A DNA stretch of 48,846 nt from a virus: the IMG/VR virus record IMGVR_UViG_3300035445_000156, positions 42,436 to 91,281 of that record. The stretch is one strand, 5' to 3'. The stretch's first letter is position 1, and every line of letters begins with the position of its first letter. The translations under genes and the position numbers were made by a program. Under the pieces are notes generated by a model. It had not been told where the DNA came from and did no database searches. It saw only the letters and a list, made by a program, of their open reading frames with translations. Shown piece after piece: positions 2,569 to 46,905 of this stretch.

Positions 2569-3209
2569 GGCGCGCGGAGAAGAGACGACGAGATAACACC
2601 GGTGTTATCTCCGGGACAAACCGACTCGTCGGCACGGTGCCGGAGATCGTCCCGATCGCCGGCCTGAGCAAGAACCCGTGGAACCCGACCGCGATCACGG
2701 GGGAGGAGCGCGACAGGATCCGACACGGGTTCAAGACGGACGGGTGGCTCGTCGCGCAGGCGCTGCTCGTGTGGCGCGCGGACGAGCGGGGGCGGGTCAG
2801 GAACGTCATCATTGACGGGGAGCAGCGCTTCACCGTCGCGGACGAGTTGGGGATGACCGAGGGGCCCGTCTCGTTCCTCGACGGGATCACGGAGGCCGCG
2901 GCGCGTCGACTCACAGTGAAGCTCAACGCGAGGCGAGCGGGCGGCGGTTCGTTCGATCCCGCGAAGTTCGCGGCGAACGTCGTTTCGATCGGGGAGGTCG
3001 ATCTCGGGGACGTCTCACACGCGCTCGACTTGGGACTCGACGATCGGGCGTTCGCCCGACTCACCGGCGCGGCGGAACGCGCGCCGGACCAGACCGAGCG
3101 CGCGCGGGTCGGGTTCGTCGTCCTCGTCGACTGCGACGACGAGACCCATCAGCTCGCTATTATCGAGGACCTGATGTCGAGGGGATACCGGTGCCGCGCG
3201 TTGACCTGA
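2565..3209 (+). CDS. ParB-like protein, copy 2, with palindromic element in its N-terminus
   Basis: 214 residues and clearly paralogous to the upstream gene (LSKNPWNPTAIT, NVIIDGEQRFTVADELGM). The C-terminus differs: a VLVDCDDETHQLAIIEDLMS tail replaces the Cys-rich end. Codons 9-19 are the 33-bp palindromic element read as RDNTGVISGTN, placed in the disordered N-terminal tail before the conserved core. The ATG overlaps the upstream stop (ATGA). An internal GTG after the element could give a shorter form. Overlaps the next gene by 19 bp. Confidence 0.75.
   Translation: MRRAEKRRRDNTGVISGTNRLVGTVPEIVPIAGLSKNPWNPTAITGEERDRIRHGFKTDGWLVAQALLVWRADERGRVRNVIIDGEQRFTVADELGMTEGPVSFLDGITEAAARRLTVKLNARRAGGGSFDPAKFAANVVSIGEVDLGDVSHALDLGLDDRAFARLTGAAERAPDQTERARVGFVVLVDCDDETHQLAIIEDLMSRGYRCRALT
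2590..2622 (+). repeat. 33-bp palindromic element, copy 1 (intragenic)
   Basis: GAGATAACACC followed by its exact reverse complement (22-bp palindrome, 2590-2611), then the tail CGGGACAAACC. Lies inside the second parB-like gene and is read in the DNTGVIS frame. Confidence 0.95.
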
Positions 3210-4381
3210 CGCTGGAGAACCCGGTCGAGCGGACGGCGCGAGTCGTCCAGCTCGAGGGGATGTTCGACGTGCCGGCGACTGAGCGCTCGCGGGTGTCGTT
3301 CTCGTTCGACGCGCCGTTCGACGAGCGACCGTGGAGTGTCGGGCTGATCGTCGGGCCGAGCGGCGCGGGCAAGACGAGCGTCGCTCGGCACCTGTTCGGC
3401 GACTGTCTCGTCTCCGGCTACGACTGGCACGAGACGAGGAGCATCGTCGATTCGTTTGAAGGGGGCATCCGCGACACGACCGCGGCGCTCTCGTCGGTCG
3501 GCTTCTCCAGCCCTCCCAATTGGCTGCGGCCGTTCCGGCTGCTCTCGTGCGGCGAGCAGTTCCGCGCGATGATGGCCCGCGCGCTCGTCGATCCGCGCCC
3601 TCGGATCTGCGTCGACGAGTTCACGAGTGTGGTCGACCGGACCGTCGCGCAGGTCGGCAGTCACGCGATCGCGAAGTCTGTCCGGAAGCGGGCCAAGCAG
3701 CTCGTCGCCGTGACGTGCCACTACGACGTCGAGGAGTGGCTGCAACCCGACTGGGTGATCGAGCCTCACCTGGGACGGTTTGCATGGAGGTCTCTTCGGC
3801 GACGACCGGACCTCGAGCTCGAGGTCGTTCGAGCCGAGTATTCGGCGTGGCGCTGGTTCGCTCCGTTTCACTATCTGAGCGCGGAGCTGCACAGGGCGGC
3901 GCGGTGCTTCGTCGGTCTTATCGCCGATCGACCGGTTGCGTTCGCGGCCTTCTTGCCGTTTCCTCACCCCAAGTGCAGAGATATACGACATATCAGTCGT
4001 CTGGTCGTACACCCTGACTACCAGGGATTGGGTCTCGGAATTTTGATGGCTTCTTTGACGGCTGGTATCTGCAAGGCGCGCGGATTTCGAGTGATGATTG
4101 TAACTTCTCACCCTTCGCTGATCGCCGCGATGGCGAGATCGCCCGAGTGGGAGTTAACTCGACGTTCGAGCTTCTCCGCCCGACAAGGCAGAACGACGAC
4201 GGTGCCCTGTTTAGTAAAGGACATAAGACGAACGGCGACCTTCTTGTTCGTGGGTTCAAGTGTCGATTCCCGTCTTTGGGAATCAGAACCGCAGCAGACA
4301 GCCGGGCATCCCGCGCAGGGGGACGGGCGCGACGGGCGCGGCGCCGTCGAGACACCACGCGAAGAGCGTCCTGCCCCGTGA
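3191..4381 (+). CDS. ABC-type ATPase fused to a GNAT acyltransferase
   Basis: 396 residues from GTG. Walker A GPSGAGKTS (about 55-63), an ABC signature-like LSCGEQ (118-123) and Walker B RICVDEF (138-144) form the N-terminal ATPase. The second half is a GNAT domain with the acyl-CoA loop VHPDYQGLGLG (273-283). No membrane segment is present, so this is not a transporter. GNAT folds include phage Mu Mom, which modifies adenine in DNA; with the two ParB-like genes upstream, a DNA or tRNA modification role is a reasonable inference. From about 3840 the sequence is less GC-rich than its neighbours, suggesting transfer or decay. The last ~33 codons overlap a convergent gene and may be non-native. 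Confidence 0.75.
   Translation: MPRVDLTLENPVERTARVVQLEGMFDVPATERSRVSFSFDAPFDERPWSVGLIVGPSGAGKTSVARHLFGDCLVSGYDWHETRSIVDSFEGGIRDTTAALSSVGFSSPPNWLRPFRLLSCGEQFRAMMARALVDPRPRICVDEFTSVVDRTVAQVGSHAIAKSVRKRAKQLVAVTCHYDVEEWLQPDWVIEPHLGRFAWRSLRRRPDLELEVVRAEYSAWRWFAPFHYLSAELHRAARCFVGLIADRPVAFAAFLPFPHPKCRDIRHISRLVVHPDYQGLGLGILMASLTAGICKARGFRVMIVTSHPSLIAAMARSPEWELTRRSSFSARQGRTTTVPCLVKDIRRTATFLFVGSSVDSRLWESEPQQTAGHPAQGDGRDGRGAVETPREERPAP
4265..4284. terminator. Hairpin between convergent genes
   Basis: GATTCCC-gtcttt-GGGAATC is a perfect 7-bp stem with a 6-nt loop. It abuts the stop codon of the minus-strand ASCH gene and lies near the end of the plus-strand ATPase/GNAT gene, so it may end both transcripts. 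No strong U tract follows. Confidence 0.45.
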
Positions 4382-4672
4382 CTCCGCGGCGGACATGAGG
4401 GCGCGCAGCTCGTCGACCGAGACGCACGCGGCGTCCGCGTCGTCGAGCGTCGCCGGTCGACAGCCGAGGAGGTCGACCCGACTCGTCACGTGACCGGCGA
4501 CGTCGTCGCCCGCGAGTTCGCCCAGCCACGGCTCGACCTCGTCTCGGCCCCTCGCCTGCTGCACGTGCAGCTCGCCGCGGTGGGTTGTCGCCCAGGTGCG
4601 CAGTTCGACCGTCTTCAGGCCGTGGCCGATGAGCGGCGCCCACGGCCACCGCACGGAGAGGGCTCGTTTCAC
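4283..4672 (-). CDS. ASCH-domain protein
   Basis: 129 residues from a GTG. KRALSVRWPWAPLIGHGLKTVELRTW is the hallmark N-terminus of ASCH/PUA-like domains (SxxxPwa...GxKtvElR), followed by HRGELHVQQA. ASCH proteins bind RNA or modified nucleosides; no substrate can be named here. The start overlaps the stop of the upstream minus-strand gene (GTGA), making it the third gene of a three-gene operon. Confidence 0.75.
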   Translation of the reverse strand: MKRALSVRWPWAPLIGHGLKTVELRTWATTHRGELHVQQARGRDEVEPWLGELAGDDVAGHVTSRVDLLGCRPATLDDADAACVSVDELRALMSAAESRGRTLFAWCLDGAAPVAPVPLRGMPGCLLRF

Positions 4673-5124
4673 TGAGTCGCTCTCCACGCCGCCCGGGAGC
4701 GGCGCCACGCCGGGAACGCGAGCTTCGCCCACGCGGCCCGCGCGAGGGTCGCGAAGAGGGCGGTCGCGGCGGGCCAGCCCCACGAGTCGGCCGCGACCAG
4801 CACGATCAGCGCGGGCCACGCCCACGTGACCAACTGCTCGCGCCAGGCGAGCGCGTCGATCAGCGCCTGTTTGCGCGGCGGGTACGGAGGAGCGGCGTGC
4901 CGCTCGCGGTGTCGTCCCTCGATGCTCGCCTTTTCCCGGGCCGTCTCCGCCTGGTAGAGGCGGAGCAGTCCGGTGACCGCGGCGATGGCGCCGGAGCGCA
5001 GATCGTGCACCGCGGGCAGGGCGCAGGCGATGAGCAGGGCCGTCTCCAGGGCGAGGGTCGCCGCACGCTCATAGCGCCACGTCTCGCCGGAGATCCGAGC
5101 GTGAATCAGGTCGACCGAGGTCAC
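4669..5124 (-). CDS. Putative membrane protein of minus-strand operon
   Basis: 151 residues from a GTG that overlaps the upstream stop. A hydrophobic segment ALETALLIACALPAV (about 24-38) and a second one, LVTWAWPALIVLVAADSWG (about 97-115), suggest two membrane passes separated by a charged loop (RREKASIEGRHRERH-like). Function unknown. Flanked by a Cys-rich protein and the ASCH protein in one operon. Confidence 0.6.
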   Translation of the reverse strand: MTSVDLIHARISGETWRYERAATLALETALLIACALPAVHDLRSGAIAAVTGLLRLYQAETAREKASIEGRHRERHAAPPYPPRKQALIDALAWREQLVTWAWPALIVLVAADSWGWPAATALFATLARAAWAKLAFPAWRRSRAAWRATQ

Positions 5125-5501: not shown

Positions 5502-5507
5502 GGGAGA

Positions 5508-7412: not shown

Positions 7413-7446
7413 GAGATAACACCGGTGTTATCTCCCCGGACAAACC
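7413..7446 (+). repeat. 33-bp palindromic element, copy 2 (divergent intergenic)
   Basis: Same 22-bp palindrome (7413-7434) with a tail CCCGGACAAACC, one base longer. It lies between the minus-strand promoter at 7367-7395 and the helicase gene, with exactly 14 bp from palindrome end to the CATCCT box (7449-7454). Confidence 0.95.
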
Positions 7447-7461: not shown

Positions 7462-9417
7462 ATGGGCGACTACATCGACGAGGCGTTCGGGCCGGGCGGG
7501 CACCTGTCGCGGGCGCTGCCCGGCTACGAGCCGCGGAGGGGGCAGGTCGACCTCGCGCGCGCCGTCGACCGGGCGATCCGCGACTCCACCGTCCTGCTCG
7601 GCGAGGCCGGTACGGGCGTCGGCAAGTCCTTCGCCTACGCGGTGCCGGCGGTCTGGCACGCGGTCCACGAGGGCCGGCGCGTGCTCGTCGTGACGGCGAA
7701 CCTGAACCTGCAGGACCAGCTCGCGGGCAAGGACCTCCCGCTCCTCCGTGCCTGCCTCCCGTGGCCGTTCGACTTCGCGGTGATGAAGGGGCGGGCGAAC
7801 TACCTGTGCCTCGACCGGCACGCGGACTCGCTCTCCGAGTCCGTCTTCGGCTCGCTCTTCGGGCGGCGAGAGGAGGTCGAGCAGTGGGACCGCGTCAACT
7901 CGTGGGCCGCGGAGACGACGGGCGGCGACGTGGCGGAGCTGCCGTTCGAGCCGCTGCCGAGCCTGCGCCAGCGCTTCACGGTCGGCGCGGAGGACTGCCT
8001 CGGGCGGGCGTGCCCGAGGCACGGCGACTGCTTCGCGAACAGGGCGAAGGTCAGGGCCGAGTCGGCGCACGTGGTCGTCGCGAACTACCACCTGCTCTTC
8101 GCGCACCTGCAGGTCGTCCGGGGGAGCGGCGGCGAGGCGGCGGTGCTGCCGCCGTTCGACGCGATGGTCCTCGACGAGGCGAACAGGGCGGCGGACATCG
8201 CGCGCGACTTCTTCGGCGCGCGCGTCACGGCGGGCGCGTGCCGGTGGGCGGCGCGCCTGCTCGCCGGCAAGGAGGGCGACCTCGACCCGGAGCTCAAGGA
8301 GCGGATCTCGGGGGAGGCGGACCGGTTCTTCGAGGCACTCGGGGACCACGCCGCGTCGCCGGCCTACCGGTCCCGACTCCGACGCGCAGACTCAGTGCGG
8401 GACTGGGGTCGCTTGGTAGGGCTCATGCAGCGGGCCTCTTCCGTCTACCTGTCGGCGGCGGGGACCGAGGAGCCGAAGCGCAAGGAGCAGCTCAGGAAGT
8501 GCGCGAGCCGGTGCGAGGGGATCGTCTCGGCGGTGACGGCCGCCATGTCGGACCCGGCGGGGGACGACGACCGCGTCTACTTCGTCGACCGGCAGGGCGA
8601 CCGGGTCGCGCTCGCGAGCAAGGCGATCGACGTCTCCGGCCGGCTGCGCGCCGAGCTCTTCGAGGCGGAGTCGGTCGGGTCGGTCACGTGCACGAGCGCG
8701 ACCTTGCGCGTCGGCGCCTCCTTCGAGTTCTTCTCCGGCGAGGTCGGGGTCGCGGAGTCGCACGACGTCGAGGAGCTCGTCGCCGAGAGCCCGTTCGACT
8801 TCCGCGAGCAGTGCCTGCTCGTCGTCCCGCGCGACGCGCCGGACCCGAAGCTCGACGTCCAGCACCGCGAGGCCGCGCGCCTGTTCGTCGAGGCGTGCCG
8901 GCAGGCGGGCGGCAGGACGCTCGGGCTGTTCACGAGCTACCGGAGCTTGACGGTCGCGCACGAGCTCGCGTCGGCGAGGCTCCCCTACCGGGTGATGCGG
9001 CAGGGCGAGGCGCCGCGGCACGAGCTCGTCCGGCGTTTCCGGGAGGACAAGACGAGCGTGCTGCTCGGGGCGGAGTCGTTCTGGTCGGGCGTCGACGTGC
9101 CGGGCGAGGCGCTCTCGTGCGTCGTGATGGACCGGCTGCCGTTCCCGAACCCGTCCGACCCGGTGATGGACGCGCTCGCGGAGCGGGACGACGACTCGTT
9201 CCGGAACCAGTCGCTGCCGCGCGCGACGACCATGTTCCGGCAGGGGTTCGGCCGGCTGATCCGGGCGTCGACCGACCGGGGCGCCGTCGTGTGCCTGGAC
9301 TCCCGTCTCCTGGACAAACCGTACGGCAAGCTCTTCCTGAAGTGCCTGCCGGCGGGCGTGCGGATGTCGCGCGACCTCGCCGACGTCGGCCGCTTCCTCG
9401 CATCATCTGCGACATGA
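7462..9417 (+). CDS. DinG/XPD-type superfamily 2 helicase
   Basis: 651 residues. Walker A GEAGTGVGKS (47-56); four Cys at about 116, 179, 184 and 190 in the right place for the Fe-S cluster of XPD/DinG helicases; a DEAN motif II (238-241); a C-terminal motif VI QGFGRLIRAS. Such enzymes unwind DNA 5' to 3' and remove R-loops or other structures. CATCCT sits 7 nt before the ATG, behind a palindromic element. The stop overlaps the methyltransferase start. Confidence 0.9.
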   Translation: MGDYIDEAFGPGGHLSRALPGYEPRRGQVDLARAVDRAIRDSTVLLGEAGTGVGKSFAYAVPAVWHAVHEGRRVLVVTANLNLQDQLAGKDLPLLRACLPWPFDFAVMKGRANYLCLDRHADSLSESVFGSLFGRREEVEQWDRVNSWAAETTGGDVAELPFEPLPSLRQRFTVGAEDCLGRACPRHGDCFANRAKVRAESAHVVVANYHLLFAHLQVVRGSGGEAAVLPPFDAMVLDEANRAADIARDFFGARVTAGACRWAARLLAGKEGDLDPELKERISGEADRFFEALGDHAASPAYRSRLRRADSVRDWGRLVGLMQRASSVYLSAAGTEEPKRKEQLRKCASRCEGIVSAVTAAMSDPAGDDDRVYFVDRQGDRVALASKAIDVSGRLRAELFEAESVGSVTCTSATLRVGASFEFFSGEVGVAESHDVEELVAESPFDFREQCLLVVPRDAPDPKLDVQHREAARLFVEACRQAGGRTLGLFTSYRSLTVAHELASARLPYRVMRQGEAPRHELVRRFREDKTSVLLGAESFWSGVDVPGEALSCVVMDRLPFPNPSDPVMDALAERDDDSFRNQSLPRATTMFRQGFGRLIRASTDRGAVVCLDSRLLDKPYGKLFLKCLPAGVRMSRDLADVGRFLASSAT

Positions 9418-10016
9418 CCGAACCGTTCCGTGTCATCTCGGCCGACCCGCCTTGGCCGTTCAGGGACAAACTCCCGGGATCGGGCAGGGGCGCCGGGAAG
9501 CACTACAACCTGCTCTCGCTCGAAGGGATCAAGGACTTCCCCCTGCCGTCGATTGCGGACGACGCGGTCCTCTTCCTCTGGCGGGTCGCGTCGATGTCGG
9601 AGGAGGCGCACGCGGTCGAGCGCGCGTGGGGATTCACGCACAAGACGGAGATCGTGTGGGAGAAGCAGAGCGTCTGCTCGAAGTGCAAGGGGGGCGGAGA
9701 ACGCTTCAACCCGACGAGACCCTGTGAGCAGTGCGGCGGAGGCGGGCGCAACCGCTGGTTCGGCATGGGGCGGATCACGCGCGCGGCGCACGAGGTCTGC
9801 CTCGTCGCGACTCGCGGCCGGCCGAAGGTGCTCGACCGCTCGGTCCGGAGTCTCTTCTCGGCGGTCGTCCCCGGTGGCCGCCACAGCGCGAAGCCGCCCG
9901 AGTTCTACGCGATGGTCGAGCGGCTATTCGCGGGGCCCTACTGCGAGCTCTTCGCGGTCGAGCGGCGACCGGGCTGGCACCAGGAGGGCTTCCAGCTCGG
10001 GGAGGAGATCCGGTGA
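9414..10016 (+). CDS. MT-A70 family adenine methyltransferase
   Basis: 200 residues. DPPW at residues 11-14 is the catalytic motif of MT-A70-like N6-adenine methyltransferases, and VCLVATRGRP plus the final strand fit the family. A Cys4 insertion (C88, C91, C104, C107; CSKC...CEQC) is a probable zinc finger within the target-recognition part. Likely methylates phage DNA, perhaps against host restriction. CATCAT 7 nt before the ATG is coded in the end of the helicase gene; ATGA overlap. Confidence 0.85.
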   Translation: MTEPFRVISADPPWPFRDKLPGSGRGAGKHYNLLSLEGIKDFPLPSIADDAVLFLWRVASMSEEAHAVERAWGFTHKTEIVWEKQSVCSKCKGGGERFNPTRPCEQCGGGGRNRWFGMGRITRAAHEVCLVATRGRPKVLDRSVRSLFSAVVPGGRHSAKPPEFYAMVERLFAGPYCELFAVERRPGWHQEGFQLGEEIR

Positions 10017-11929: not shown

Positions 11930-11942
11930 CGGGCATCATCCG

Positions 11943-11975
11943 GAGATAACACCGGTGTTATCTCCGGGACAAACC
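11943..11975 (+). repeat. 33-bp palindromic element, copy 3 (leader)
   Basis: Perfect 22-bp palindrome plus CGGGACAAACC. A CATCAT box at 11935-11940 would place the transcription start 7 nt later, inside the left arm of the palindrome. A bound protein would then block initiation. A GAGGGAGAAGG ribosome-binding site and the ATG at 11990 follow. Confidence 0.95.
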
Positions 11976-13248: not shown

Positions 13249-13722
13249 ATGGGTTTCACGGTAGGGATCGTCAAGCCGCGCGCGACGCGGCACCTCGGGA
13301 GAATCCTCGAGGTGCTGACGCGCGGCGGATTCGTCATCGACGAGGTGCGGGTGCTGGAGTTGACGGACGAGGAAGCGCGCGAGTTCTACGCGGAGCACGC
13401 GGGGAAGCCGTTCTTCGACGAGCACGTCGCGTTCATGACGAGCGAGCCCGTCGTTTTCCTCGTGCTCTCGATGCCAGCGCTCGACAACTCAGGCGAGCTG
13501 TCCGTCAAGACGCTGCGGAAGTTGCTCGGGGACACGGACCCGAAGAAGGCGGCCCCGTTCACGATCAGGTGCCGGTTCGGCAGCAACGAGCTCCCGGACA
13601 ACGCGATGCACGGCTCCTCGGACCCGGACGCGGCGGTCCGGGAATTCAAGTTGTTCCGTCGCTTCTGCGAATCGCGCGGTGACCGTTCTCTAGGAGTCCT
13701 CCGAGACGGGGAATCCGGGTGA
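13249..13722 (+). CDS. ndk: Nucleoside diphosphate kinase
   Basis: 157 residues. FTVGIVKPRATRHLG opens the ferredoxin-like fold; the phosphohistidine lies in NAMHGSSDPDAA (His at about 121). Transfers the terminal phosphate between (d)NTPs and (d)NDPs. Some insertions (NSGELSVKTLRKLLGDTDPKKA) match the family's Kpn-loop region. A GGAGAAGGGAG ribosome-binding site precedes the ATG. First gene of a nucleotide cluster with dcd, thyX and a pyrophosphohydrolase; the stop overlaps the dcd GTG. Confidence 0.9.
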   Translation: MGFTVGIVKPRATRHLGRILEVLTRGGFVIDEVRVLELTDEEAREFYAEHAGKPFFDEHVAFMTSEPVVFLVLSMPALDNSGELSVKTLRKLLGDTDPKKAAPFTIRCRFGSNELPDNAMHGSSDPDAAVREFKLFRRFCESRGDRSLGVLRDGESG

Positions 13723-14393
13723 TCCTCGGGGACGCGGAGATCCGGCGGGCGCTCGACGCGGGCGAGATCGCGGTCGATCCCATGGCGCCGTGGGCGCTCG
13801 GGACGAACTCGATCGACCTCCACCTGGCGCCGTCGCTGCGCGTCTACGCCGACGTCGTGCTCCGGACCGACCGGGACTGCCCGACGCGCGAGGTCCCGAT
13901 CCCGCCCGGCGTCGGCGTGTGCCTGAGCCCGGGCGAGCTCTACCTCGCCTCGACCGTCGAGCGCACGAGGAGCGGGCCCTACCTGCCGGTCATCGACGGG
14001 ACGAGCGGCGCGGGCCGGCTCGGGATCAGCGTGCACCAGACGGCGGGGATCGGCGATGTCGGCTTCGAGGGGCACTGGACTCTCGAGCTCGCGGTCGTGC
14101 GACCGGTGCGCGTGTTCGGGGGAGAGCCGATCGCGCAGCTCCGGTTCTTCGAGGTCGCGGGTCGCGTGCTCGTGCCGTACGGGGAGAAGGAGACGGCGAG
14201 CTACGCGGACGCGAGGGAGAGCGGGCCGGTCCCGCGCGGCTCGCGGATGTGGCGCAAGAGGCGGTGGACGGGTGCCCCGAAGTGCGACTCGTGCGGCGGG
14301 ACGAGCTTCCGTCAGTCGGACACGAGCGACCCGGGGTCGCCCGGTGCGTCGGGTGCGGGACGGTTCGGTGCGTGTGGAAGGGAGAAGATGTGA
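13719..14393 (+). CDS. dcd: dCTP deaminase-like protein with zinc-ribbon tail
   Basis: 224 residues from GTG. LGTNSIDLHLAPSLRVY and the core VIDGTSGAGRLGISVHQTAG with GDVGFEGHWTLEL are Dcd/dUTPase-family signatures. The enzyme makes dUTP (or dUMP) for thymidylate synthesis. The tail starts a zinc ribbon (CDSCGGTSF) whose second CxxC (RCVGCG) is only present in the -1 frame, which then runs into thyX. The shift point has a heptamer C-CCG-GGG in the zero frame. Either a real -1 frameshift or one missing base. Confidence 0.8.
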   Translation: MILGDAEIRRALDAGEIAVDPMAPWALGTNSIDLHLAPSLRVYADVVLRTDRDCPTREVPIPPGVGVCLSPGELYLASTVERTRSGPYLPVIDGTSGAGRLGISVHQTAGIGDVGFEGHWTLELAVVRPVRVFGGEPIAQLRFFEVAGRVLVPYGEKETASYADARESGPVPRGSRMWRKRRWTGAPKCDSCGGTSFRQSDTSDPGSPGASGAGRFGACGREKM

Positions 14394-15211
14394 ACAAGGA
14401 AGAAGCGAACACAGCCTACGGACGCGCGGGAGAGGTGAGCAGGGTTGAGCTGCTCGATCACGGGTACGTCGAGCTCGTCGAGACATGGGGGAGCGACGAG
14501 CGGATCGTCGAGGCGGCGCGGATGTCGACGGGGAAGAGGTTCCTCGGTTGGGGCGAACGCTGCCGATCTTGCGGTTACCCGAAAGAGTGCGGCGACCATG
14601 AGGTGGGTTGCGCGGCGGATCCCGGACTCGCCGCGTCGTGGGTGCCCGGAGACGAACGGCTCCTCCGATTCCTGTGGGAGAACAAGCACGCGACCCCGTT
14701 CGAGATGGCGGGCGCGACGATCGAAGTGCAGGCGCCGATCATGGTGTTCCGCGAGTGGCACCGACACCGCACGCAGAGCTACAACGAGATGAGCGCGCGG
14801 TACGCGCCGTTGCCGGCTGTCGACTACCTGCCGACGGTCGAACGGGTCCTGATGGTCGACCCGAAAAATCATCAGGCGCAGGCGCTCGCGGGCAGTGAGA
14901 AGATCACGATGGAGTCGGCGCTGGAGTGGCTCGCTGAACTCGCCGACCTCTACGAGCACTGCGAGCGCGTTTATCAGAGCGGGCTGCGCCGCGGCGTGCC
15001 GAAGGAGCTTGCGCGACTCGCTGTGACGGTCGGGCGCTATTCGCGCATGCGCGCGAGCGGCAACCTGCGGAACTGGCTCGGCTTTCTGTCGCTCCGCATG
15101 CCGTCGAACGCCCAATTGGAGATCCGCTCGTACGCGACGGCCGCGCATGACCGCTTTTTCGTGCCCGCGTTCCCCCGGACGCTCGCGCTCTTCGACGAGA
15201 GGCGGGCGTGA
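14390..15211 (+). CDS. thyX: Flavin-dependent thymidylate synthase ThyX
   Basis: 273 residues from GTG. RHRTQSYNEMSARY (about 125-138) is the ThyX motif; FLWENKHATPFE and RRGVPKELARLAVTVGRYS also fit. Makes dTMP from dUMP using FAD and folate. An insertion with four Cys (about 58, 61, 67, 74) suggests a zinc knuckle before the first conserved helix. A GGAAGGGAGAAG ribosome-binding site lies just upstream. The stop overlaps the next GTG. Confidence 0.93.
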   Translation: MNKEEANTAYGRAGEVSRVELLDHGYVELVETWGSDERIVEAARMSTGKRFLGWGERCRSCGYPKECGDHEVGCAADPGLAASWVPGDERLLRFLWENKHATPFEMAGATIEVQAPIMVFREWHRHRTQSYNEMSARYAPLPAVDYLPTVERVLMVDPKNHQAQALAGSEKITMESALEWLAELADLYEHCERVYQSGLRRGVPKELARLAVTVGRYSRMRASGNLRNWLGFLSLRMPSNAQLEIRSYATAAHDRFFVPAFPRTLALFDERRA

Positions 15212-18577: not shown

Positions 18578-19225
18578 ATGGCGAGCGAGAACCGAGATCG
18601 ACGACAGGCCGAGGTCGCGAGGTGGGCGGCCGAGTGCTTCGGGCGAGAGCAGGCGACGTCCCTGCCGCAGCGGGGGATTCGTCTCCTCGAGGAGGCGGTC
18701 GAGCTCGCGCAGGCGGCGGGCTGCGAACGGGCGATGGCGCTCGCGTTGGTCGACTATGTGTTCTCGCGGCCCGTCGGGGAGCTCGGCCGCGAGATCGGCG
18801 GGGTGAGCACGACGTTGCTCGCGCTCGCCGAGGCCGCCGGGACGAGCGCGGACGAAGAGGAGGCGCGCGAGGTCGCTCGCGTCCTGGCCGCGCCCCGGGA
18901 GCACTTCGCGGCCCGCAACGCCGCGAAGAACGCGGCCGGCTTCCTGGCGGCCGGGGGAGATAACATCTCCCGGGACGCGAGGGACGGCGAAGCGAGAGAC
19001 CTGACTTTCTGCGCGAACGCGGTCGAGAGCGTCGCGGGTGAGCTGGAGTCGCAGGCGCGGGAGATCGACCGGGTACCCCACCTCTACGCCCGCGAGGCGG
19101 CAGCGGCGCTGAAGATACAGGCGGGGTTGCTACGGGCGCTCGTGCCGTCGATCCGCGAAGTGAACGCCGAGATCGAGGACTTCTTCGCTCGTTGGGGGCG
19201 CTCGATCGCATCATCGGGCGCATGA
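18578..19225 (+). CDS. MazG-like NTP pyrophosphohydrolase family protein
   Basis: 215 residues. RLLEEAVELAQAAG and EIGGVSTTLLALAEAAG carry the acidic metal-binding pattern of the MazG fold found in many phages. A C-terminal helical extension (about 140-215) is unassigned. Codons 127-134 (GDNISRDA) are a decayed copy of the palindromic element, just between the two parts. CATCAT lies 10 nt before the ATG; the 3' end codes the next CATCAT box. Confidence 0.7.
   Translation: MASENRDRRQAEVARWAAECFGREQATSLPQRGIRLLEEAVELAQAAGCERAMALALVDYVFSRPVGELGREIGGVSTTLLALAEAAGTSADEEEAREVARVLAAPREHFAARNAAKNAAGFLAAGGDNISRDARDGEARDLTFCANAVESVAGELESQAREIDRVPHLYAREAAAALKIQAGLLRALVPSIREVNAEIEDFFARWGRSIASSGA
18957..18976 (+). 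repeat. Decayed palindromic element (9-bp core lost)
   Basis: GAGATAAC-ATCTCC-CGGGAC matches the 33-bp element with the central ACCGGTGTT removed, one extra C, and the tail end mutated. The host gene remains in frame. Confidence 0.7.
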
Positions 19226-20578: not shown

Positions 20579-21161
20579 GGTCAGGCGGGCGGCGGCCGTG
20601 CCGGTCGTCCCTCCGTCGGAGGTGACGGGGGCGCGGGCCGACCGACTGCTGGAGGTCGCGGGGGTCAGGGACGAGCACCTCGTCCTGCTCGTGGACGGCG
20701 GGGAGGCGCTCGCGGGCGCGTTCCTCCGGGCGCATCGCCTCCGGATCGACCGGCGCCGGAGGAGTCCCCCGAACACGGGCCCGGGGCTGCACGTCATCGA
20801 GACCTCCGAGGGGCCGCGCGCCGCCGTGTGGCGGATGTTCGACGAGGCGTGGCCCCCCGGGGCGATGGAGGGGCGCGTGCTCGGCGACCCGCCCGAGCGG
20901 TTCCCGGCGGTCGTCTCTGGCGGCTTCGACCGGGTGGTCGTCTGCGCCGGTCACCTCGACCCGGAGCGGGCCGCGAGGCGGGTCCTCTGCTGCTACTTCC
21001 TGCTCGGGCCGGGCGGCCGGCTCGTCGCGTCGCTCGACCGGGTCGCGCTCGACGCGGATGGCGGCCGGCTCGCGCGCTGGGTCGACATGCAGGGCGGCGA
21101 GTACCACGCGCCGGACGGGACGCTCGACTCGCCCGCCCGGGTCGTCGCGGTCGACCGGTGA
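20562..21161 (+). CDS. Hypothetical protein
   Basis: 199 residues from GTG (VRVRS start). The middle part (FDRVVVCAGHLDPERAARRV, then CCYFLLGPGGRLV) resembles a Rossmann-like or alpha/beta domain, but I cannot place it. Ends in a GTGA overlap with the next gene. Confidence 0.55.
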   Translation: MRVRSEVRRAAAVPVVPPSEVTGARADRLLEVAGVRDEHLVLLVDGGEALAGAFLRAHRLRIDRRRRSPPNTGPGLHVIETSEGPRAAVWRMFDEAWPPGAMEGRVLGDPPERFPAVVSGGFDRVVVCAGHLDPERAARRVLCCYFLLGPGGRLVASLDRVALDADGGRLARWVDMQGGEYHAPDGTLDSPARVVAVDR

Positions 21162-21390
21162 TACCGGGACAGGACGTGCGGCCCCGGGGGTCGTCGAGTA
21201 CGACGTCCCGGATCGGGACACGGGCGAGCCGACGACGATCCGCTTCATGGCGTGCTTCCCCCTCCCTGCCGTCGAGGTCGCGGCCGCTCGCCCCGACCTG
21301 TTCGTCGCGTTCGTCCGTCGCGCGCTGCACGTCGGCGGGGTCAGGGTCTTCGACCCGCACGCGTGCGAGCCGGCATCATCCGGGGCATGA
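21158..21390 (+). pseudogene. Frameshifted small gene (one base missing in a G run)
   Basis: GTG 21158 overlaps the upstream stop in the usual GTGA way and reads VIPGQDVRPRG. The protein-like continuation VVEYDVPDRDTGEPTTIRFM to EPASSGA is in the -1 frame and has no start codon of its own nearby. One extra G in CCCCGGGGG (21180-21189) would join both into about 77 residues. No canonical slippery site, so a sequencing or true deletion is likeliest. Confidence 0.55.
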
Positions 21391-21878
21391 GCGAGGGTGA
21401 ATCGCGGTTCGTGCGGCTGATCCGGGAGATCCGGGAGACGGACTCGGTCGAGGGCGCGGCGCGGGAGATCGCGTCGCTGTCGGGGCCGGAGGCGGCCCGA
21501 CTGACCTGCGACCTGTGCGCGCTGCTGGCCCCGTACCTGGTCGGCAGACTGCACGCGGAGATCGTCGCGGTCGCGTCGCGGTCGACCGGCGCTCAGGGCC
21601 CCGCGACGGACCTGACCCCGCTCTCTCCCTGGACGGCCGTCGACGCGGGTCCGGACAAGCCGGACTGCCAGGTCGTCCTCGACGCGCGCGGGCGAGTCGT
21701 CGCCCGCGTCTGGCAGGACCACTCGGCGGTCGGGTGCCTGCCCTGGCGCTACCAGGTGTTCGGCCTCGAGCCCTTCGCCGCGCCCCGAGCGCAGATGGCC
21801 CGCGCCGGCGCGACCGAGCTCCTCTCCGGCGCGCTCTCGTGGCTCAAGGGGCGGCCGTTCCCGGATGACCGAGCGTAA
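21387..21878 (+). CDS. Hypothetical protein
   Basis: 163 residues. Acidic N-terminal helix, then CQVVLDARGRVVARVW and LPWRYQVFGLEPFA. No family recognised. CATCAT is exactly 7 nt before the ATG, which overlaps the upstream stop. Confidence 0.6.
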   Translation: MSEGESRFVRLIREIRETDSVEGAAREIASLSGPEAARLTCDLCALLAPYLVGRLHAEIVAVASRSTGAQGPATDLTPLSPWTAVDAGPDKPDCQVVLDARGRVVARVWQDHSAVGCLPWRYQVFGLEPFAAPRAQMARAGATELLSGALSWLKGRPFPDDRA

Positions 21879-21975: not shown

Positions 21976-23855
21976 GGGTCCGCGAGCAGAGCCCCGACAT
22001 GGGTCAAGATGACGGAGCCGTATCGCGCGCCGAGTTGGCCAGGGACAGGGCGCTCGTGGACGCCGTCCTGCGCCGCGCGGCGCTCGCCCGGACGAGCCCG
22101 AAGGTCGGCTTCTCGTTCGTCATGCGGGAGGAGCACGGCGAGCGCAGGCGCATCACGACGCTGCCCCACCAGCGGGTGATGATCGACTTCCTGGCACAGC
22201 ACGACCGGGCCAACCTGCGCGCCTTCGTCGGCAGCTCCAAGACGTTCGTCCTGACCTACCTCGTCTTGACCCTGCTCGGCGCCGACCCGACCGCTCGCGG
22301 CGCGATCCTGAGCGCGACGCAGGACCAGGCGAAGAAGCCCCTGCGGCTCGTCTCGCAGTTCATCGAGAACCCCGACAACGCCTTCCCGGAGCTCGCGCTC
22401 GTCTACCCGCGCCTCCGGCCGACGCGGCGCAAGAGCGAGCCGTGGACGCAGGCGGAGATCGTGGTCGACCGGCCGGCGGGCATCCGCGACCCGAGCCTCG
22501 TCGCGGTCGGGATGGACACGGGCTCGCTCCCCGGGTCGCGCCTGTCATTCATCGTCCTCGACGACGTCCTGAACGAGGCGAACACGCGGACGCCCGAGGC
22601 GCGGAAGAAGGTCCTCTCGTTCCTGCTCTCGACCGTGTTCACGCGCGAGGACATCCGGAACACGAAGATCTGGAACGCGACGCAGCCGTGGCACCCGGAG
22701 GACGTGACCTACGTGCTGCAGAAGTCGGGCTGGCCGACGCTGGAGATGGACGTGTGGGGCAACGTCGGGATCTGGGGCGCGCCCGACTTCGACACGGACG
22801 ACATCCGGCCGGCGGCGCGGCGCGAGGGCCCGTATCACCGGCTCACCGCGCACGACTCGGCCGAGCACGGCGCGCCGCTCACGGTCGCCTACCCGGACGG
22901 GACGCGCGAGCTCGCGCGCGTCGGGCCGGTCGAGATAACACCGGTGTTATCTCCGGGACAAACCGCCGCGGGCGCCCGCCTCGAGCACTTCGACCTGGAG
23001 GAGGTCGTCCCGCTCTGGCCCGGGAAGTTCGGGCACGCGGAGATCCCGGGCATCCGGCAGAAGTTCGCGGCGCTGCCCGGCAAGTTCGCGCAGGCGTACG
23101 AGATGAACCCGCGCGATGACGAGCAGGCCGCGTGCAAGCAGGCGTGGGTGGACGCCTGCAAGGCGAACGGGCTCGCCATGGGACACCGGCGGATGGTCTC
23201 CCGCTACGACGGGCCGAACCTCACGGTGACGGGCGTCGACCTCGCGGTCGGCAAGAAGGCCGGCAGCGGCAAGACGAGCCTCTTCACGTACGAACTCCTG
23301 CCGACAGGCAAACGGAAGATCCTCAACATCCAGATCGGGCGCTGGTCGGGCCGGGAGATCGTGACGCGCGTCCGAAACACGGAGCGCGACTTCAAGTCGA
23401 TTGAACGGGTCGAATCCAACGCGGCTCAGGACTACCTGCGGCAGTGGGCGCTCGACGAGGAGGACCTGCAGCGGGAGGAGCGGCGCGAGGCGCGCCGGCG
23501 CGCGGGGCAGGCGGCCAACACCGCTCCCCCCGAGCCCGCGTCGCTCCCGCTCATCCGCGCGCACTTCACGGGCCGGGAGAAGCACGACCCGACCTACGGC
23601 GTGCAGGGCGTCTTCATCGCGATGGAGAACGCGGTCTGGGTCATCCCCTGCGAGGACGACGGCAGCGTGCAGCCCGAGGTCCAGCAGTGGGTAGAGGACT
23701 GCCTCTACTTCCGGCCCGGCGCGCACACGGGCGACGTGCTCATGAGCTGCTGGCTCGCCTGCGAGCAGGAGCGCGAGGTCACGCGCGGGCGGGGCAGGCC
23801 GGACCCGGACGGCGAGCAGCAGCAGAGCGTCGCGGCCGCGCTGCTCTCCCGCTGA
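21972..23855 (+). CDS. terL: Terminase large subunit
   Basis: 627 residues from GTG. The N-terminal ATPase has RAFVGSSKTFVLTYL as a divergent P-loop and SFIVLDDVLNEAN as Walker B. The C-terminal nuclease begins VTGVDLAVGKKAGSG and ends with DVLMSCWLACEQ. Packages DNA into proheads and cuts concatemers. Codons 321-331 are the palindromic element, read EITPVLSPGQT, inserted in the region linking the two domains. Nothing else looks broken, so the enzyme is probably active with an 11-residue insertion. Confidence 0.9.
   Translation: MRVREQSPDMGQDDGAVSRAELARDRALVDAVLRRAALARTSPKVGFSFVMREEHGERRRITTLPHQRVMIDFLAQHDRANLRAFVGSSKTFVLTYLVLTLLGADPTARGAILSATQDQAKKPLRLVSQFIENPDNAFPELALVYPRLRPTRRKSEPWTQAEIVVDRPAGIRDPSLVAVGMDTGSLPGSRLSFIVLDDVLNEANTRTPEARKKVLSFLLSTVFTREDIRNTKIWNATQPWHPEDVTYVLQKSGWPTLEMDVWGNVGIWGAPDFDTDDIRPAARREGPYHRLTAHDSAEHGAPLTVAYPDGTRELARVGPVEITPVLSPGQTAAGARLEHFDLEEVVPLWPGKFGHAEIPGIRQKFAALPGKFAQAYEMNPRDDEQAACKQAWVDACKANGLAMGHRRMVSRYDGPNLTVTGVDLAVGKKAGSGKTSLFTYELLPTGKRKILNIQIGRWSGREIVTRVRNTERDFKSIERVESNAAQDYLRQWALDEEDLQREERREARRRAGQAANTAPPEPASLPLIRAHFTGREKHDPTYGVQGVFIAMENAVWVIPCEDDGSVQPEVQQWVEDCLYFRPGAHTGDVLMSCWLACEQEREVTRGRGRPDPDGEQQQSVAAALLSR
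22932..22964 (+). repeat. 33-bp palindromic element, copy 4 (inside terL)
   Basis: Full perfect copy, in frame, with no -10-like hexamer at the +14 position seen in the promoter-proximal copies. Confidence 0.95.
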
Positions 23856-25657: not shown

Positions 25658-26218
25658 ATGAGCCAACGACCGATCGACCCGGAAGCAGAAGGATTCATCG
25701 ATTCGATACCGGCGGAGACGGCGAGATACGTGTCCGCGGCGAAGAAGATCGATCTGACGTGCGGGGGCTTGCTCCTGCAGGACTCCCGGGAGCTCCTCCG
25801 CGGGGACGCGGGCGGCGAGATAACACCGGTGTTATCTCCGGGACAAACCGAACGGCCGAACGATCTGCTCGGCAAAACGGTCCTGCACGGACCGAGCGGT
25901 GTCGTCGGATCCGTACGTCGGATCTACGGGCCGGGCGAGTACCTGGTCAAGCCGAAAGGCGTCGAGACGAGCGGCCGGCCGGTGAGCGAGTCGGTCGTCG
26001 AGCTCGAGGACGGCAACGCCTTCCTCTTCCGGTCGGGCGCGTTCACGGTGCTGGAGGCGCCGGAGCTGCGACTCTGGAAGCTCGCCGGCCTGGCAGTCCG
26101 GGAGGCAGCGGAGAACATTGTCGGGGCCGGCGCCGCCTTCAGGGTCACCCCCGAGACGACGACCGCGATCTTGAAGGCGGCGCTCTCCGCGCAGCTCCGG
26201 ACTCTCTCGCTCGACTGA
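25658..26218 (+). CDS. Hypothetical protein carrying palindromic element
   Basis: 186 residues. N-terminal helical part, then codons 54-64 are the element (EITPVLSPGQT), then a beta-rich domain (GKTVLHGPSGVVGSVRRIYG; VVELEDGNAFLFRSGAF). The element sits at a domain junction, as in terL. Not recognised; place between STAS and virion genes gives no clue. Confidence 0.6.
   Translation: MSQRPIDPEAEGFIDSIPAETARYVSAAKKIDLTCGGLLLQDSRELLRGDAGGEITPVLSPGQTERPNDLLGKTVLHGPSGVVGSVRRIYGPGEYLVKPKGVETSGRPVSESVVELEDGNAFLFRSGAFTVLEAPELRLWKLAGLAVREAAENIVGAGAAFRVTPETTTAILKAALSAQLRTLSLD
25817..25849 (+). repeat. 33-bp palindromic element, copy 5 (intragenic)
   Basis: Full perfect copy inside the hypothetical gene 25658-26218, same EITPVLS frame as in terL. 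Confidence 0.95.
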
Positions 26219-27869: not shown

Positions 27870-29164
27870 CCCTCGCCTCCCTCTTTGCCGCGCACGACGT
27901 TCGGCAGGAAGACGTTGCAGCCGCGGCGGGTGTAGACCCGCGCCTCTTCGACCGCATCGACGCCGGCCTGCAGCCGATCCCCGCCGACGTCGCCGCGTCG
28001 GTCGCCCTGTCCCTCTCCGTCTCCCCCGCCGAGGTCTACCGGGAGGCCGGCGAGTGGACGCTCGACGTGTCCGCCGCCTCCAAGAGGCCGGTGCCGGTCG
28101 ACCCCGACCTCTACGGCGGGCGGGTCGACTACGCGCCGCTCTCCCCGCTGTCGACCGCGCCGATCGTCCCCCCGCCCGCTCCCCCGTCGGGCTGGGTCGT
28201 CTACGACCGGGCCGTCAACGACAGCGTGCTCGTGCGGTTCCACCGCGACTCGGGCGCGCTCCTGTCCGCGACGCCGCTCTCCGGGGTCCTGATCGGCGCG
28301 CGCTCCGTGCTCGACCTGGCGGCCGGCGGCGGGGAGCTCTTCGCGGTCGCCTCCGCGGGCAACGGGGCGGCCTATCGGGTCGACGCGAAGACGGCGGCGG
28401 TCGAGGCGCGGAGCGCGCTCTCCTACGCTGGCGCGCGGGCGATCGAGCACGAGCCGGTCACCGGCACGCTCTGGGTCGCGGACACGGCGGCCGAGCGGCT
28501 GCGTCGGCTCAGGCTCGACGACATGGAGCCGGCCGCGAGCCTGACGCTCACCGACTCGGGGACGGACTACGACCCGGCCGACCTCGTCGCGCTCGGGGGC
28601 TACCTCTACGTGCTCGCGACCGACCCGAGCGGGGACGCCTTCGTCTGGCAGGTCGACCCGGTGACGGACTCGGTCGTCGCGCAGAGCGGGCTCCTGCCGG
28701 ACGCGGCGTGCCTCGCGGCGAGCACGGCGGAGCAGACCGGCGCGCCGTTCCTGTGGGTCGTCACGTCGACCTCGATCGTCCACCGCCTCGACCCGACGAC
28801 GCTCGCGGGCGGGAACGCGTCGATCCCGGGCGCGCCGCTGGAGAACCCGTCGGCCGTCGTGTTCTTCTCCTCGCGCCTGTGGGTCTCGGAGCGGACGGTC
28901 GTCGGGGACGACCCGAAGTGGTCCGCCGTCGAGCTCGCCGGCTTCACGGTCACCGCGACCCAGACCTACCCCGCGAGCCCCGTGACCGGGCTAGGGCGCA
29001 TGGCGACCGACGGCGTGTTCGCGTGGGCGCCGCACGCGGGGAGCCTGCTCGTCCCCGACGGCCTGGAACGGCTCAACCCGAACGACTACGCGAGCGTGCT
29101 CTCCGCGCGGCCGGCGTCCCCCGCTGACGCGGCGCGCGTCCCGTCGGCGATGCTCTTCCTCTGA
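27866..29164 (+). CDS. Beta-propeller virion protein with HTH-like N-terminus
   Basis: 432 residues from GTG. Residues 1-60 (DVRQEDVAAAAGVDPRLFDR ... ADVAASVALSLSVSPAEVYR) read like an XRE-type helix-turn-helix. The rest has repeated blade-like segments (GWVVYDRAVNDSVLVRF, GTLWVADTAAERLRRL, GYLYVLATDPS) that suggest a seven-bladed propeller, as in some receptor-binding proteins. A DNA-binding head on a tail protein is unusual. A chance resemblance of the N-terminal helices is possible. Confidence 0.65.
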   Translation: MTLASLFAAHDVRQEDVAAAAGVDPRLFDRIDAGLQPIPADVAASVALSLSVSPAEVYREAGEWTLDVSAASKRPVPVDPDLYGGRVDYAPLSPLSTAPIVPPPAPPSGWVVYDRAVNDSVLVRFHRDSGALLSATPLSGVLIGARSVLDLAAGGGELFAVASAGNGAAYRVDAKTAAVEARSALSYAGARAIEHEPVTGTLWVADTAAERLRRLRLDDMEPAASLTLTDSGTDYDPADLVALGGYLYVLATDPSGDAFVWQVDPVTDSVVAQSGLLPDAACLAASTAEQTGAPFLWVVTSTSIVHRLDPTTLAGGNASIPGAPLENPSAVVFFSSRLWVSERTVVGDDPKWSAVELAGFTVTATQTYPASPVTGLGRMATDGVFAWAPHAGSLLVPDGLERLNPNDYASVLSARPASPADAARVPSAMLFL

Positions 29165-29182: not shown

Positions 29183-29518
29183 ATGCCCGACCCGACGCGA
29201 GTTCCCGCCGGCGCGCTCACCCCGATCGAGCTCGTCTACGTGCTCCGGAGCGAGACGGTCGACCTGAGCAAGGCGACGAGCGCGCGGTTCGTGCTGCGCC
29301 GGAACCGCGGGCAGGCGGCAGACGAGTCATGGACCGCGACGATCCGGAGCAAGTCGCCGCGGTGCCTCACGCTCGCGCGCCCGTTCGAGGCGGGCGACGT
29401 GCCGGTGCCGGACGACATCGTGTTCGAGCCGCGCGTCCTGACCTCGCTCGGGCCCGGCGAGGTCGTCGGCCGGACCCGGACGCTCGTCGTCTTCGATCAC
29501 CCCGCGGTGCATCGGTGA
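29183..29518 (+). CDS. Baseplate-type N-terminal-domain protein
   Basis: 111 residues. TPIELVYVLRSETVDLSKAT...FVLRRNRG resembles the beta-sandwich domain at the N-terminus of baseplate upper proteins (BppU-like) and other receptor-binding modules. TAGTCT is 7 nt before the ATG. Assignment is tentative. Confidence 0.55.
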   Translation: MPDPTRVPAGALTPIELVYVLRSETVDLSKATSARFVLRRNRGQAADESWTATIRSKSPRCLTLARPFEAGDVPVPDDIVFEPRVLTSLGPGEVVGRTRTLVVFDHPAVHR

Positions 29519-30941: not shown

Positions 30942-31274
30942 ATGCTCGTCAACAGACTGATTTCCGGCTCGGCCGCTCTCCTGCGATGGGCGGCCGAGGT
31001 CCTGGAGAGCCGGATCGGAGATAACACCGGTGTTATCTCCGGGACAAGCCAGGAAGCGGAGAACGACTACGTCCCCGCGCAGGACCCGGTGACGCCCGAG
31101 GCCCGCGCGCTGCTGCGCGGCGAGTGCGCGCACGGGATGACGAAGGACTGCGCGACGTGCTCGTACGAGGGGAAGCACGGGCCGGGCGCCCAGTCCCCGC
31201 CGCCCCCTGACGACGCGGTCCCGGCAGACAGGTACTTCTCCGCGAAGCCGGCCCGCAGGGTGTTCCGGCCGTGA
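30942..31274 (+). CDS. Small protein carrying palindromic element
   Basis: 110 residues. A hydrophobic N-terminal helix, then GDNTGVISGTS from the element at codons 26-36, then a Cys/His segment CAHGMTKDCATCSYEGKH that may bind zinc. TAGCCT lies 7 nt before the ATG. The stop overlaps the portal GTG. Confidence 0.6.
   Translation: MLVNRLISGSAALLRWAAEVLESRIGDNTGVISGTSQEAENDYVPAQDPVTPEARALLRGECAHGMTKDCATCSYEGKHGPGAQSPPPPDDAVPADRYFSAKPARRVFRP
31018..31050 (+). repeat. 33-bp palindromic element, copy 6 (intragenic)
   Basis: Perfect 22-bp palindrome; the tail is CGGGACAAGCC (one A-to-G change). Read in the DNTGVIS frame, as in the second parB-like gene. Confidence 0.95.
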
Positions 31275-39895: not shown

Positions 39896-40561
39896 GTGAA
39901 GCTCGACGAACATCTCTCGAAGGCGGACCCGAACGTCCTCGCCGACATCTTCCGCAAGATCAACCTCGCGCAGGTCCTGCGCGGGCAGGTCCCGCAGTTC
40001 CTCCGGCGCAAGGTCCCGGCGGCCGGCGTCCAGCTCGCGACGCTCGAGACGCTCGTGCTCGCCGACAACGCGAAGGCGTCGGTCGTCATCCGCGCGACCG
40101 TCCGGGCGGGCGGCGTGACCGGCGAGCTCGACCCGCAGACGTACGGGACGACTCCCGCGACAACGCAGATCGCAGTCGCCCCGAACGGGGACATCGTCGT
40201 GCTCGCCGCCGACGCGATCACGGACATCGACGTGCACTACCTGCCCGAGCGCGGGGACGTCTACGAGACGACGATGCCCGTCATCTCCGACGTGCTCACC
40301 CCCTCGACCACATTCACTGCCTCGCCGCGCGGCATCGTGCTGCTCCTCGAGGCGGAGGCGGTCGAGGCGACGAGCACGGGGGACAAGGTCGTCCTCGTGC
40401 CCGGGTCGGTGCCGGCAGCGGGTCAGGCGGCCCTCACGGACGACGAGAAGCTCTCGGTCACGTTCGCCGCGGCCGACGCGGTGACGCGCGCCCGGGTCAA
40501 GTTCCTGCTCGTCGCGCTGCAGGACCTCGACGCGCTGCTCGAGTCGGAGGCGACCGTCTGA
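39896..40561 (+). CDS. Hypothetical structural/decoration-type protein
   Basis: 221 residues from GTG. A helical N-terminus (LADIFRKINLAQVLRGQVPQ) followed by beta-rich sequence (DIVVLAADAITDIDVHYLPE). Lies just before scaffold and capsid genes. Its ribosome-binding site lies in the hairpin at 39853-39886, so expression is likely tuned. Not recognised. Confidence 0.65.
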   Translation: MKLDEHLSKADPNVLADIFRKINLAQVLRGQVPQFLRRKVPAAGVQLATLETLVLADNAKASVVIRATVRAGGVTGELDPQTYGTTPATTQIAVAPNGDIVVLAADAITDIDVHYLPERGDVYETTMPVISDVLTPSTTFTASPRGIVLLLEAEAVEATSTGDKVVLVPGSVPAAGQAALTDDEKLSVTFAAADAVTRARVKFLLVALQDLDALLESEATV

Positions 40562-40592
40562 GATAACACCGGTGTTATCTCCGGGACAAACC
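40560..40592 (+). repeat. 33-bp palindromic element, copy 7 (leader of scaffold)
   Basis: Full perfect copy; its first base overlaps the preceding stop codon. Followed by an AAAGGGAGAAGGG ribosome-binding site and the ATG at 40610, the same arrangement as copy 3. Confidence 0.95.
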
Positions 40593-44387: not shown

Positions 44388-44402
44388 TCTCGCATGTGAG
44401 GA

Positions 44403-45406: not shown

Positions 45407-45414
45407 GGGTCGAG

Positions 45415-45443: not shown

Positions 45444-45456
45444 GGAGTTTGTCCGG

Positions 45457-45969: not shown

Positions 45970-46018
45970 ACTACTGAGCGAAATCGAAGGCGCCGCTCGC
46001 GCGGATAATGCTCGGGCG

Positions 46019-46696: not shown

Positions 46697-46854
46697 AAGA
46701 GGACCCGCGCCTCGCGTCGGCGGAGCAGGCGCTCGCGCTCGGTCGGGGTCGACGGGTACCGGACGATCTCCCGCCCCGCCTTGCACCGGAAGGCTACCGC
46801 GCCGACCTCGCCCCTCGCCTTGCGGTTCTGTCGCCTCGTGAGTATTCGCTTCAT
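46693..46854 (-). CDS. Small minus-strand gene with leaderless start
   Basis: 53 residues: MKRILTRRQNRKARGEVGAV through TERERLLRRREARVLF. Basic. The ATG is exactly 7 nt after a CATCAT box on the minus strand (46862-46867); the stop overlaps the upstream gene's stop. Lies opposite the palindromic element, which is shared with the divergent plus-strand gene. Confidence 0.6.
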   Translation of the reverse strand: MKRILTRRQNRKARGEVGAVAFRCKAGREIVRYPSTPTERERLLRRREARVLF

Positions 46855-46872
46855 GACCCGGATGATGCGCCG

Positions 46873-46905
46873 GAGATAACACCGGTGTTATCTCAAGGAC
46901 AAACC
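46873..46905 (+). repeat. 33-bp palindromic element, copy 8 (divergent intergenic)
   Basis: Perfect 22-bp palindrome with tail AAGGACAAACC. It is 5 bp from the minus-strand CATCAT box and 14 bp from the plus-strand CATCAT box (46909-46914), so it can affect both genes. The 14-bp distance equals that of copy 2. Confidence 0.95.

Follow-up and report, generated by a model that had tools for sequence, protein, structure and literature searches.

A dispersed perfect palindrome in an uncultivated myovirus, with private counterparts in its relatives, as a predicted set of protein-binding sites

A perfect 22-bp palindrome, GAGATAACACCGGTGTTATCTC, is dispersed over the genome of an uncultivated virus (IMG/VR record IMGVR_UViG_3300035445_000156 of 91,281 bp, here G000). 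Bases 42,436-91,281 of this record, 48,846 nucleotides in all, are the window analysed here. The genome holds 15 distinct copies, every one of them perfect, and about 20 of its dozens of uncultivated relatives have a palindrome of their own, 12-30 bp long. Dispersed private palindromes, shared junctions, even spacing and a common half-site grammar are together the expected look of a site set for a dimeric trans-acting factor. We lean slightly toward the reading that the palindromes are binding sites of a phage-encoded homodimeric helix-turn-helix (HTH) protein, forming a stoperator-like network that controls transcription or organises the genome.

The Palindrome and Its Copies

Exactly 2,887 bp at one end of the G000 record are repeated at the other, and we therefore take the record to map a complete genome of 88,394 bp, which is circularly permuted or has terminal repeats. 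Because of this overlap, which contains the copy at window position 46873, the 16 matches in the record represent the 15 distinct copies. Judged by the homology of its genes (tail sheath, baseplate, terminase, portal, family-B DNA polymerase, DnaB-like helicase, UvsX-like recombinase and SbcC-like protein), the virus is a myovirus. Nucleotide-level and protein searches of 50,697 named phage records gave no close relative. Genes were called with a home-made codon-usage caller, and the genomes are metagenomic.

Eight perfect palindromes had originally been predicted in the window, and all were confirmed at their positions, where 100 dinucleotide shuffles lead to an expectation of zero. An 11-bp tail, CGGGACAAACC (T1), follows many of the copies. 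The window copies and one relic are listed below.

2590..2622, + strand: perfect palindrome with exact tail, between the ParB-like genes g54 and g55; the palindrome ends 26 nt before the g55 GTG
7413..7446, + strand: perfect palindrome, tail with a 1-nt insertion (34 bp), at the divergent junction of g63 (- strand) and the helicase gene g64 (+ strand), 28 nt before the g64 ATG
11943..11975, + strand: perfect palindrome with exact tail, 26 nt before the g70 ATG
18957..18976, + strand: relic with an internal in-frame 9-bp deletion (GAGATAAC-ATCTCC), inside g80, peptide GGDNISRDA
22932..22964, + strand: perfect palindrome with exact tail, inside the terminase large subunit gene g88 (TerL), frame EITPVLSPGQT
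25817..25849, + strand: perfect palindrome with exact tail, inside g92 near the N terminus, frame EITPVLSPGQT
31018..31050, + strand: perfect palindrome, tail with one mismatch, inside the small gene g99 just upstream of the portal gene, frame DNTGVISGTS
40560..40592, + strand: perfect palindrome with exact tail, overlapping the g115 stop codon, 29 nt before the g116 ATG
46873..46905, + strand: perfect palindrome, tail with two mismatches, between g123 and the sheath gene, 28 nt before a small open reading frame (ORF)

Five window copies (2590, 7413, 11943, 40560 and 46873) are intergenic, with the palindrome ending 26-29 nt before a start codon, and three (22932, 25817 and 31018) are genic, instead of the four of each that had been counted. 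The 33-bp unit of palindrome plus tail described in the original prediction is exact at five copies (2590, 11943, 22932, 25817 and 40560) but altered at 31018 and 46873 and extended to 34 bp at 7413. Similarly, the claim that all copies are co-oriented is correct for the window tails but does not extend to the whole genome. T1, exact or slightly altered, is seen on 10 of the 15 copies, once inverted (17762), and five copies lack it. Two of these five, in g29 and in the SbcC-like gene, share a different tail of 16 bp and thus match each other over 38 bp. The palindrome is symmetric and has no orientation of its own. As the tail is absent, inverted or different in part of the copies, the repeating unit is the palindrome itself. 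The tails have the look of flanks that were copied or came under local selection; nearly every copy has unique flanks.

Copies with one to four mismatches were not found in G000. Three decayed forms are recognisable. The one at window 18957 (GAGATAACATCTCC), correctly described earlier as a decayed copy, is the palindrome minus an internal stretch of 9 bp, and two more imperfect forms lie at G000 8951 and G000 23459. Sequences resembling half a palindrome plus tail at window 9306-9320 (TCTCCTGGACAAACC) and 21154-21171 (ACCGGTGATACCGGGACA) are possible relics, at a level near chance. G000 also contains a second dispersed motif, GGATGATGC / GCATCATCC, in 19 copies (in the window e.g. at 11933, 24115, 25644, 38990 and 39833). 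Its two forms are the halves of an 18-bp palindrome and occur singly, often a few nucleotides upstream of starts or right after stops; one adjoins the 11943 palindrome.

Exact searches of IMG/VR with palindrome and tail gave a single match, a fold-back (inverted) artefact at a contig end (L011:1-60) that matches the 18-bp core of the palindrome by chance. An 18-mer search of GTDB genomes gave eight matches, which is near chance level, and none of the eight had the tail.

Relatives Carry Private Palindromes

Relatives were found by profile scans, with a helicase profile yielding G001 and capsid and polymerase profiles then yielding dozens more. Searched for in these genomes, as had been proposed, the element has counterparts that are equally dispersed and in part at the same junctions, but the sequence is private to each. 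The larger contigs contain 6-26 copies per genome, often with every copy perfect, and the overall sequences are unrelated. The 88.8-kb relative G001 has 22 copies of a different palindrome, GAACCCGGGTTC. Further examples are the following.

G005: AAATCCAATTGGATCGATCCAATTGGATTT, 19 perfect copies
G006: TGGAACTCGAGTTCCA, 24 perfect copies, none at one mismatch
G007 (15-kb fragment): GATCGAACATCGATGTTCGATC, 7 perfect copies, none at one mismatch
G017: CCGCACGGCGCCGTGCGG, 26 perfect copies, none at one mismatch
G018: CAAACCCGGGTTTG, 26 perfect copies, none at one mismatch
G019: GTTCACCCGGGTGAAC, 21 perfect copies, none at one mismatch

Imperfect versions are seen in G008 and G014. For a few private palindromes the evidence is just two copies at a single locus, and our criterion of repeated perfect palindromes misses imperfect networks. 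No palindrome set was detected in G009, G010, G013, L194 and L197-L200, some of which are incomplete contigs. Motifs enriched in L178 (CCGGCCCCGGA) and L179 (CCAAGGCCCCC) were rejected as sites, being low-complexity repeats. In the relative L187 (IMGVR_UViG_3300032893_000018, 21082-21951), CATCAACAGCCGCGCGAGGCTTCGAGTATCGCGAC is repeated 13 times, every ~72 bp, in a CRISPR-like array.

Copies Are Evenly Spaced and Enriched at Gene Junctions

The coefficient of variation of copy spacing is 0.43-0.60 in the seven near-complete genomes tested, compared to ~0.93 for random placement, with p values for even spacing of 0.0012, 0.0086, <0.0002, 0.0002, 0.00035, 0.0001 and 0.012. The same test gave p = 0.07 for the 15-kb fragment G007. 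Copies are also concentrated between genes in all five genomes tested: 8 of 15 are intergenic in G000 against 1.7 expected, and the other four genomes have 14/22 (2.8 expected), 17/20 (4.0), 13/24 (3.0) and 7/7 (0.9). Six G000 copies have a start codon at most 45 nt downstream, where 0.8 would be expected, and this proximity is enriched in four of the five genomes.

Several positions recur between genomes. The junction between g123 and the sheath gene holds a palindrome in G000, G001, G006 and L125, each with its own sequence. A palindrome lies upstream of the capsid gene (MCP) in G001, G005 and G007, the g7|g8 junction is common to G000 and G005, and g25|g26 to G001 and G005. Both G000 and G001 have two copies upstream of the helicase gene g28, and in both the small gene upstream of the portal gene (g99 in G000) contains the genome's own palindrome. 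The count of recurring positions was made by eye on a single table and carries no significance test.

The palindromes also have a half-site pattern in common. Among 21 palindromes, position -1 is C in 20, -3 is A or C in 20, -5 is A in 15 and -7 is G in 14, giving the half-site GAAMMNC (G-AA-M-M-N-C|) with a central C|G in all but one palindrome. The flanks do not covary, and thus no longer stem is being kept. We rejected an RNA hairpin or cruciform stem on this ground, and the Rfam search was likewise empty.

Genic Copies Lie in Variable or Permissive Protein Segments

The genic copies in G000 use the two reading frames of the palindrome that are free of stops, EITPVLS or DNTGVIS, as originally predicted. 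The use of two frames, together with the intergenic copies, indicates that the constraint acts on the DNA and not on the protein. In TerL, the copy at 22932 falls where the G001 homologue has a 10-aa gap. The DNA polymerase carries its copy in the hypervariable loop after motif A, where the length differs from that of G001 by about one residue. The copy in the SbcC-like gene is aligned without gaps to one homologue, an alignment that the coiled coil makes loose. The primase of G006 carries a copy as a clear 7-aa loop insertion. As far as such alignments show, the genic copies occupy variable or permissive protein segments or loops. Regular spacing and the presence of copies in the middle of genes suggest that coverage of the whole genome matters.

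A Candidate Reader of the Palindromes

The original prediction named an HTH protein (33079), a sigma-like protein (10858) and ParB-like proteins as possible binders, but the comparison of genomes favours others. Our candidate is g36 (G000 29293-29481, outside the window; L013:9793-9978), a small Fis/HTH_8-like HTH protein of 62 aa in G000, encoded between the primase and helicase genes. A syntenic small HTH gene between the primase and helicase/sigma genes was present in all five of the largest genomes first examined. With a cut-off of 22 for Pfam HTH_8, G006_121 (24.9) and G008_23 (25.5) score above and G000_36 (19.7) below. An AlphaFold2 model of g36 is a four-helix HTH domain with a pLDDT of 84, for which Foldseek returned only generic HTH-domain matches (probability up to 0.97, E-values above 0.3).

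In classical HTH proteins, base contacts are made by positions 11, 12, 16 and 20 of the motif. Across 18 g36-like (type-A) HTH domains, no other motif positions vary as much as these four, and T14, R17 and W18 hardly change. A type-B HTH paralogue, in G000 at about 28809-28962, shows less variation at the four positions. As a reader of the palindromes, g36 may be the right protein, though we would put its chances somewhat below even.

Several type-A members have basic GRP/AT-hook-like tails, and the HTH genes of the g36 region are preceded by an acidic ORF of 49-52 aa in G000, G005 and G008. The first candidate reader, g39 (zinc-ribbon and HTH-like, beside the polymerase), was dropped since it is equally present in phages without palindromes. 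The phage protein g38 (L013:11621-12313) resembles sigma-70 region 2 and scores above the Pfam cut-off only in the relative G008. The tandem paralogues g54 and g55 (window 1972-3209), which have a palindrome copy between them, are only ParB N-domain-like and sub-threshold in Pfam. Homologues of g54/g55 are present in G001, G008 and G010, and none were detected in the palindrome-bearing G005 and G006.

On inspection by eye, the window also has putative genes for nucleoside diphosphate kinase and for dCTP deaminase-like, ThyX-like, MT-A70-type methyltransferase and RuvC-like proteins (13249-15211, 9414-10016 and 1200-1724). They would suit the nucleotide-metabolism set of a lytic phage.

Weighing a Network of Binding Sites Against Other Explanations

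Taken together, the comparison points to the palindrome set as fast-evolving, genome-wide docking sites for a virus-made DNA-binding protein. That a dimer binds the palindromes is very probable; whether the palindromes have a regulatory role seems to us an even call. A dimer of the phage HTH protein would bind each palindrome. Where operons start or end, the bound dimer would repress or tune initiation, and elsewhere, at regular intervals in long genes, it would stop elongation or bridge the genome. We infer that one orthologous protein reads all site sets and that its specificity drifts together with the sites. With less assurance, we suggest that the bound protein is both an operator-bound repressor and an elongation roadblock in the manner of stoperators, and possibly a genome organiser too. 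Of the two explanations offered originally, a new stoperator-like network is the better one in light of the site sets of the relatives, except that tail and orientation do not define it.

Several observations weigh against such a network or against g36 as its reader. HTH divergence and palindrome divergence are uncorrelated (Mantel r 0.11, p 0.17, n = 14). The contact positions of the HTH motif are surface positions as well, and their variability in g36-type proteins would by itself be weak evidence. A g36-like gene is also found in some phages without a detectable palindrome, and none was detected in L186 and L220, which have palindromes. Matches to integrase, resolvase and ParA families (PF00589, PF00239 and PF13614) were absent from the genomes searched, giving no sign of a lysogeny for a repressor to maintain. 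A -10-like hexamer is only weakly enriched after start-adjacent sites (9/29, ~3.2 expected). Finally, the complete lack of one-mismatch copies is stricter than is usual for operators.

A bolder version, which we consider rather doubtful, is that many genomes of a phage family carry the palindrome as a private 'address': perfect, placed at regular intervals, identical within a genome and swapped wholesale between relatives, it would allow a predicted phage protein to recognise, organise or silence its own genome only. If true, this would be a genome-wide self-mark new to apparently virulent phages.

An unlikely alternative is that the sites space the chromosome for condensation, replication or packaging, like dispersed parS, Noc, MatP or Fis-type nucleoid sites, and have no part in gene control. 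The even spacing in seven genomes with its small maximum gaps would fit, as would the copies in the middle of the DNA polymerase, terminase and SbcC-like genes, away from operon boundaries. The central C|G and the arms resemble parS/NBS-type palindromes, and g36 is itself Fis-family-like with basic GRP-type tails in its group. However, a ParA-type ATPase (PF13614) was not found in six genomes, the ParB-like g54/g55 go undetected in the carriers G005 and G006, and the strong placement just upstream of start codons suits regulation better.

We find it improbable that the palindrome is a mobile or self-copying element (RPE-, REP- or MITE-like) that spreads within each phage and has no function for it. 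The selfish in-frame palindrome of the original prediction retains some appeal, as the route by which copies arise, from the TerL and G006 primase copies, which resemble small in-frame insertions, from the T1 tail on ten copies, from the 38-bp identity between the g29 and SbcC-like gene copies, and from the absence of near-copies, as after recent spread. It leaves unexplained, or explains only by extra assumptions, the even spacing, the half-site grammar and the positions common to phages with unrelated palindromes. Furthermore, alignments show no 33-bp insertion at the DNA polymerase and SbcC-like copies, resolvase and integrase were not found, and a Y1 transposase (PF01797) was absent from eight genomes; the control search was positive in 5 of 14 known genomes.

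The palindrome could in principle take the place of the -35 box in the phage's own promoters and be read by an activator together with the sigma-like g38, which we judge quite improbable. In several phages the palindrome ends 17-29 nt before start codons, -10-like sequences (TAACAT, TAGGGT, TAGCCT) follow in some, and g38 with its sigma-70 region-2-like domain is present in G000 and G008. Against this, the overall -10 enrichment is weak, many copies lie mid-gene or just past stop codons, tails are reversed at some copies in G000 and G005, and a long conserved tail is absent in G001 and G006. That the repeat is due to chance, to base composition or to faulty assembly has practically no probability left, being refuted by the shuffles and by the independent parallels in ~20 relatives, with unique flanks at nearly every copy. 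Assembly artefacts do occur in such data, as the fold-back in L011 shows.

Comparison With Known Systems

Most phages known to have genome-wide site networks are temperate (L5-type, SPbeta). Here ~20 uncultivated, seemingly virulent myoviruses have private, mostly perfect sets, evenly spaced wherever enough genome could be tested. None of the open-licence papers searched described palindromes that are private, perfect and evenly spaced. Such sets make it testable how a whole site set and its reader switch specificity together, and whether a regular spacing of protein sites serves phage chromosomes. Many orthogonal protein-site pairs could also become tools.

Palindromes of the parS, Noc and MatP type have a central C|G, occur in several copies and serve genome organisation. 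The present sites differ from these in that no ParA was found, related phages have wholly different sites, and ParB-like genes are undetected in some carriers. REP/RAYT systems need an associated Y1 transposase, unlike the present palindromes, for which none was found in the eight genomes. In cluster K phages, start-associated sequences (SAS/ESAS) are reportedly repeats just upstream of start codons at a fairly constant distance; here the association with starts holds for only a subset, and each relative has a different sequence. Rickettsia palindromic elements, units of ~150 bp that code for a conserved peptide, are inserted in frame into unrelated genes (PMC10969869). Our palindromes likewise lie in frame within unrelated genes, but the units are 22-33 bp, use two frames, are mostly in-place or very short, and are constrained at the DNA level.

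The SPBRE of SPbeta is a 15-bp phage-specific repeat in ~10 intergenic promoter regions of a temperate phage, first seen in silico and later shown to be the site of MrpR, a tyrosine-recombinase-like repressor (PMC10516654). The palindromes are similarly phage-specific and repeated, but in contrast to the promoter-limited SPBRE they include genic copies and are perfect dyads, and an integrase was not found. The stoperators of cluster A mycobacteriophages (L5, Bxb1) number 20-30 per genome, few at promoters and most elsewhere; they are 13-14 bp long without dyad symmetry, bound by a monomer and oriented with transcription, in temperate phages with integrase or parABS, and related phages have distinct sequences, each read by its cognate protein (PMC6550527, PMC9283540). 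The present sets are comparable in their 15-26 dispersed copies per near-complete genome and in a sequence distinct for each phage. They differ in being perfect, evenly spaced dyads of 12-30 bp that are also genic, in having no inherent orientation and tails that are absent or reversed at part of the copies, and in phages where integrase, resolvase and ParA were not found. By analogy, the palindrome set may work like the L5/Bxb1 stoperator set, yet it is not a member of that class.

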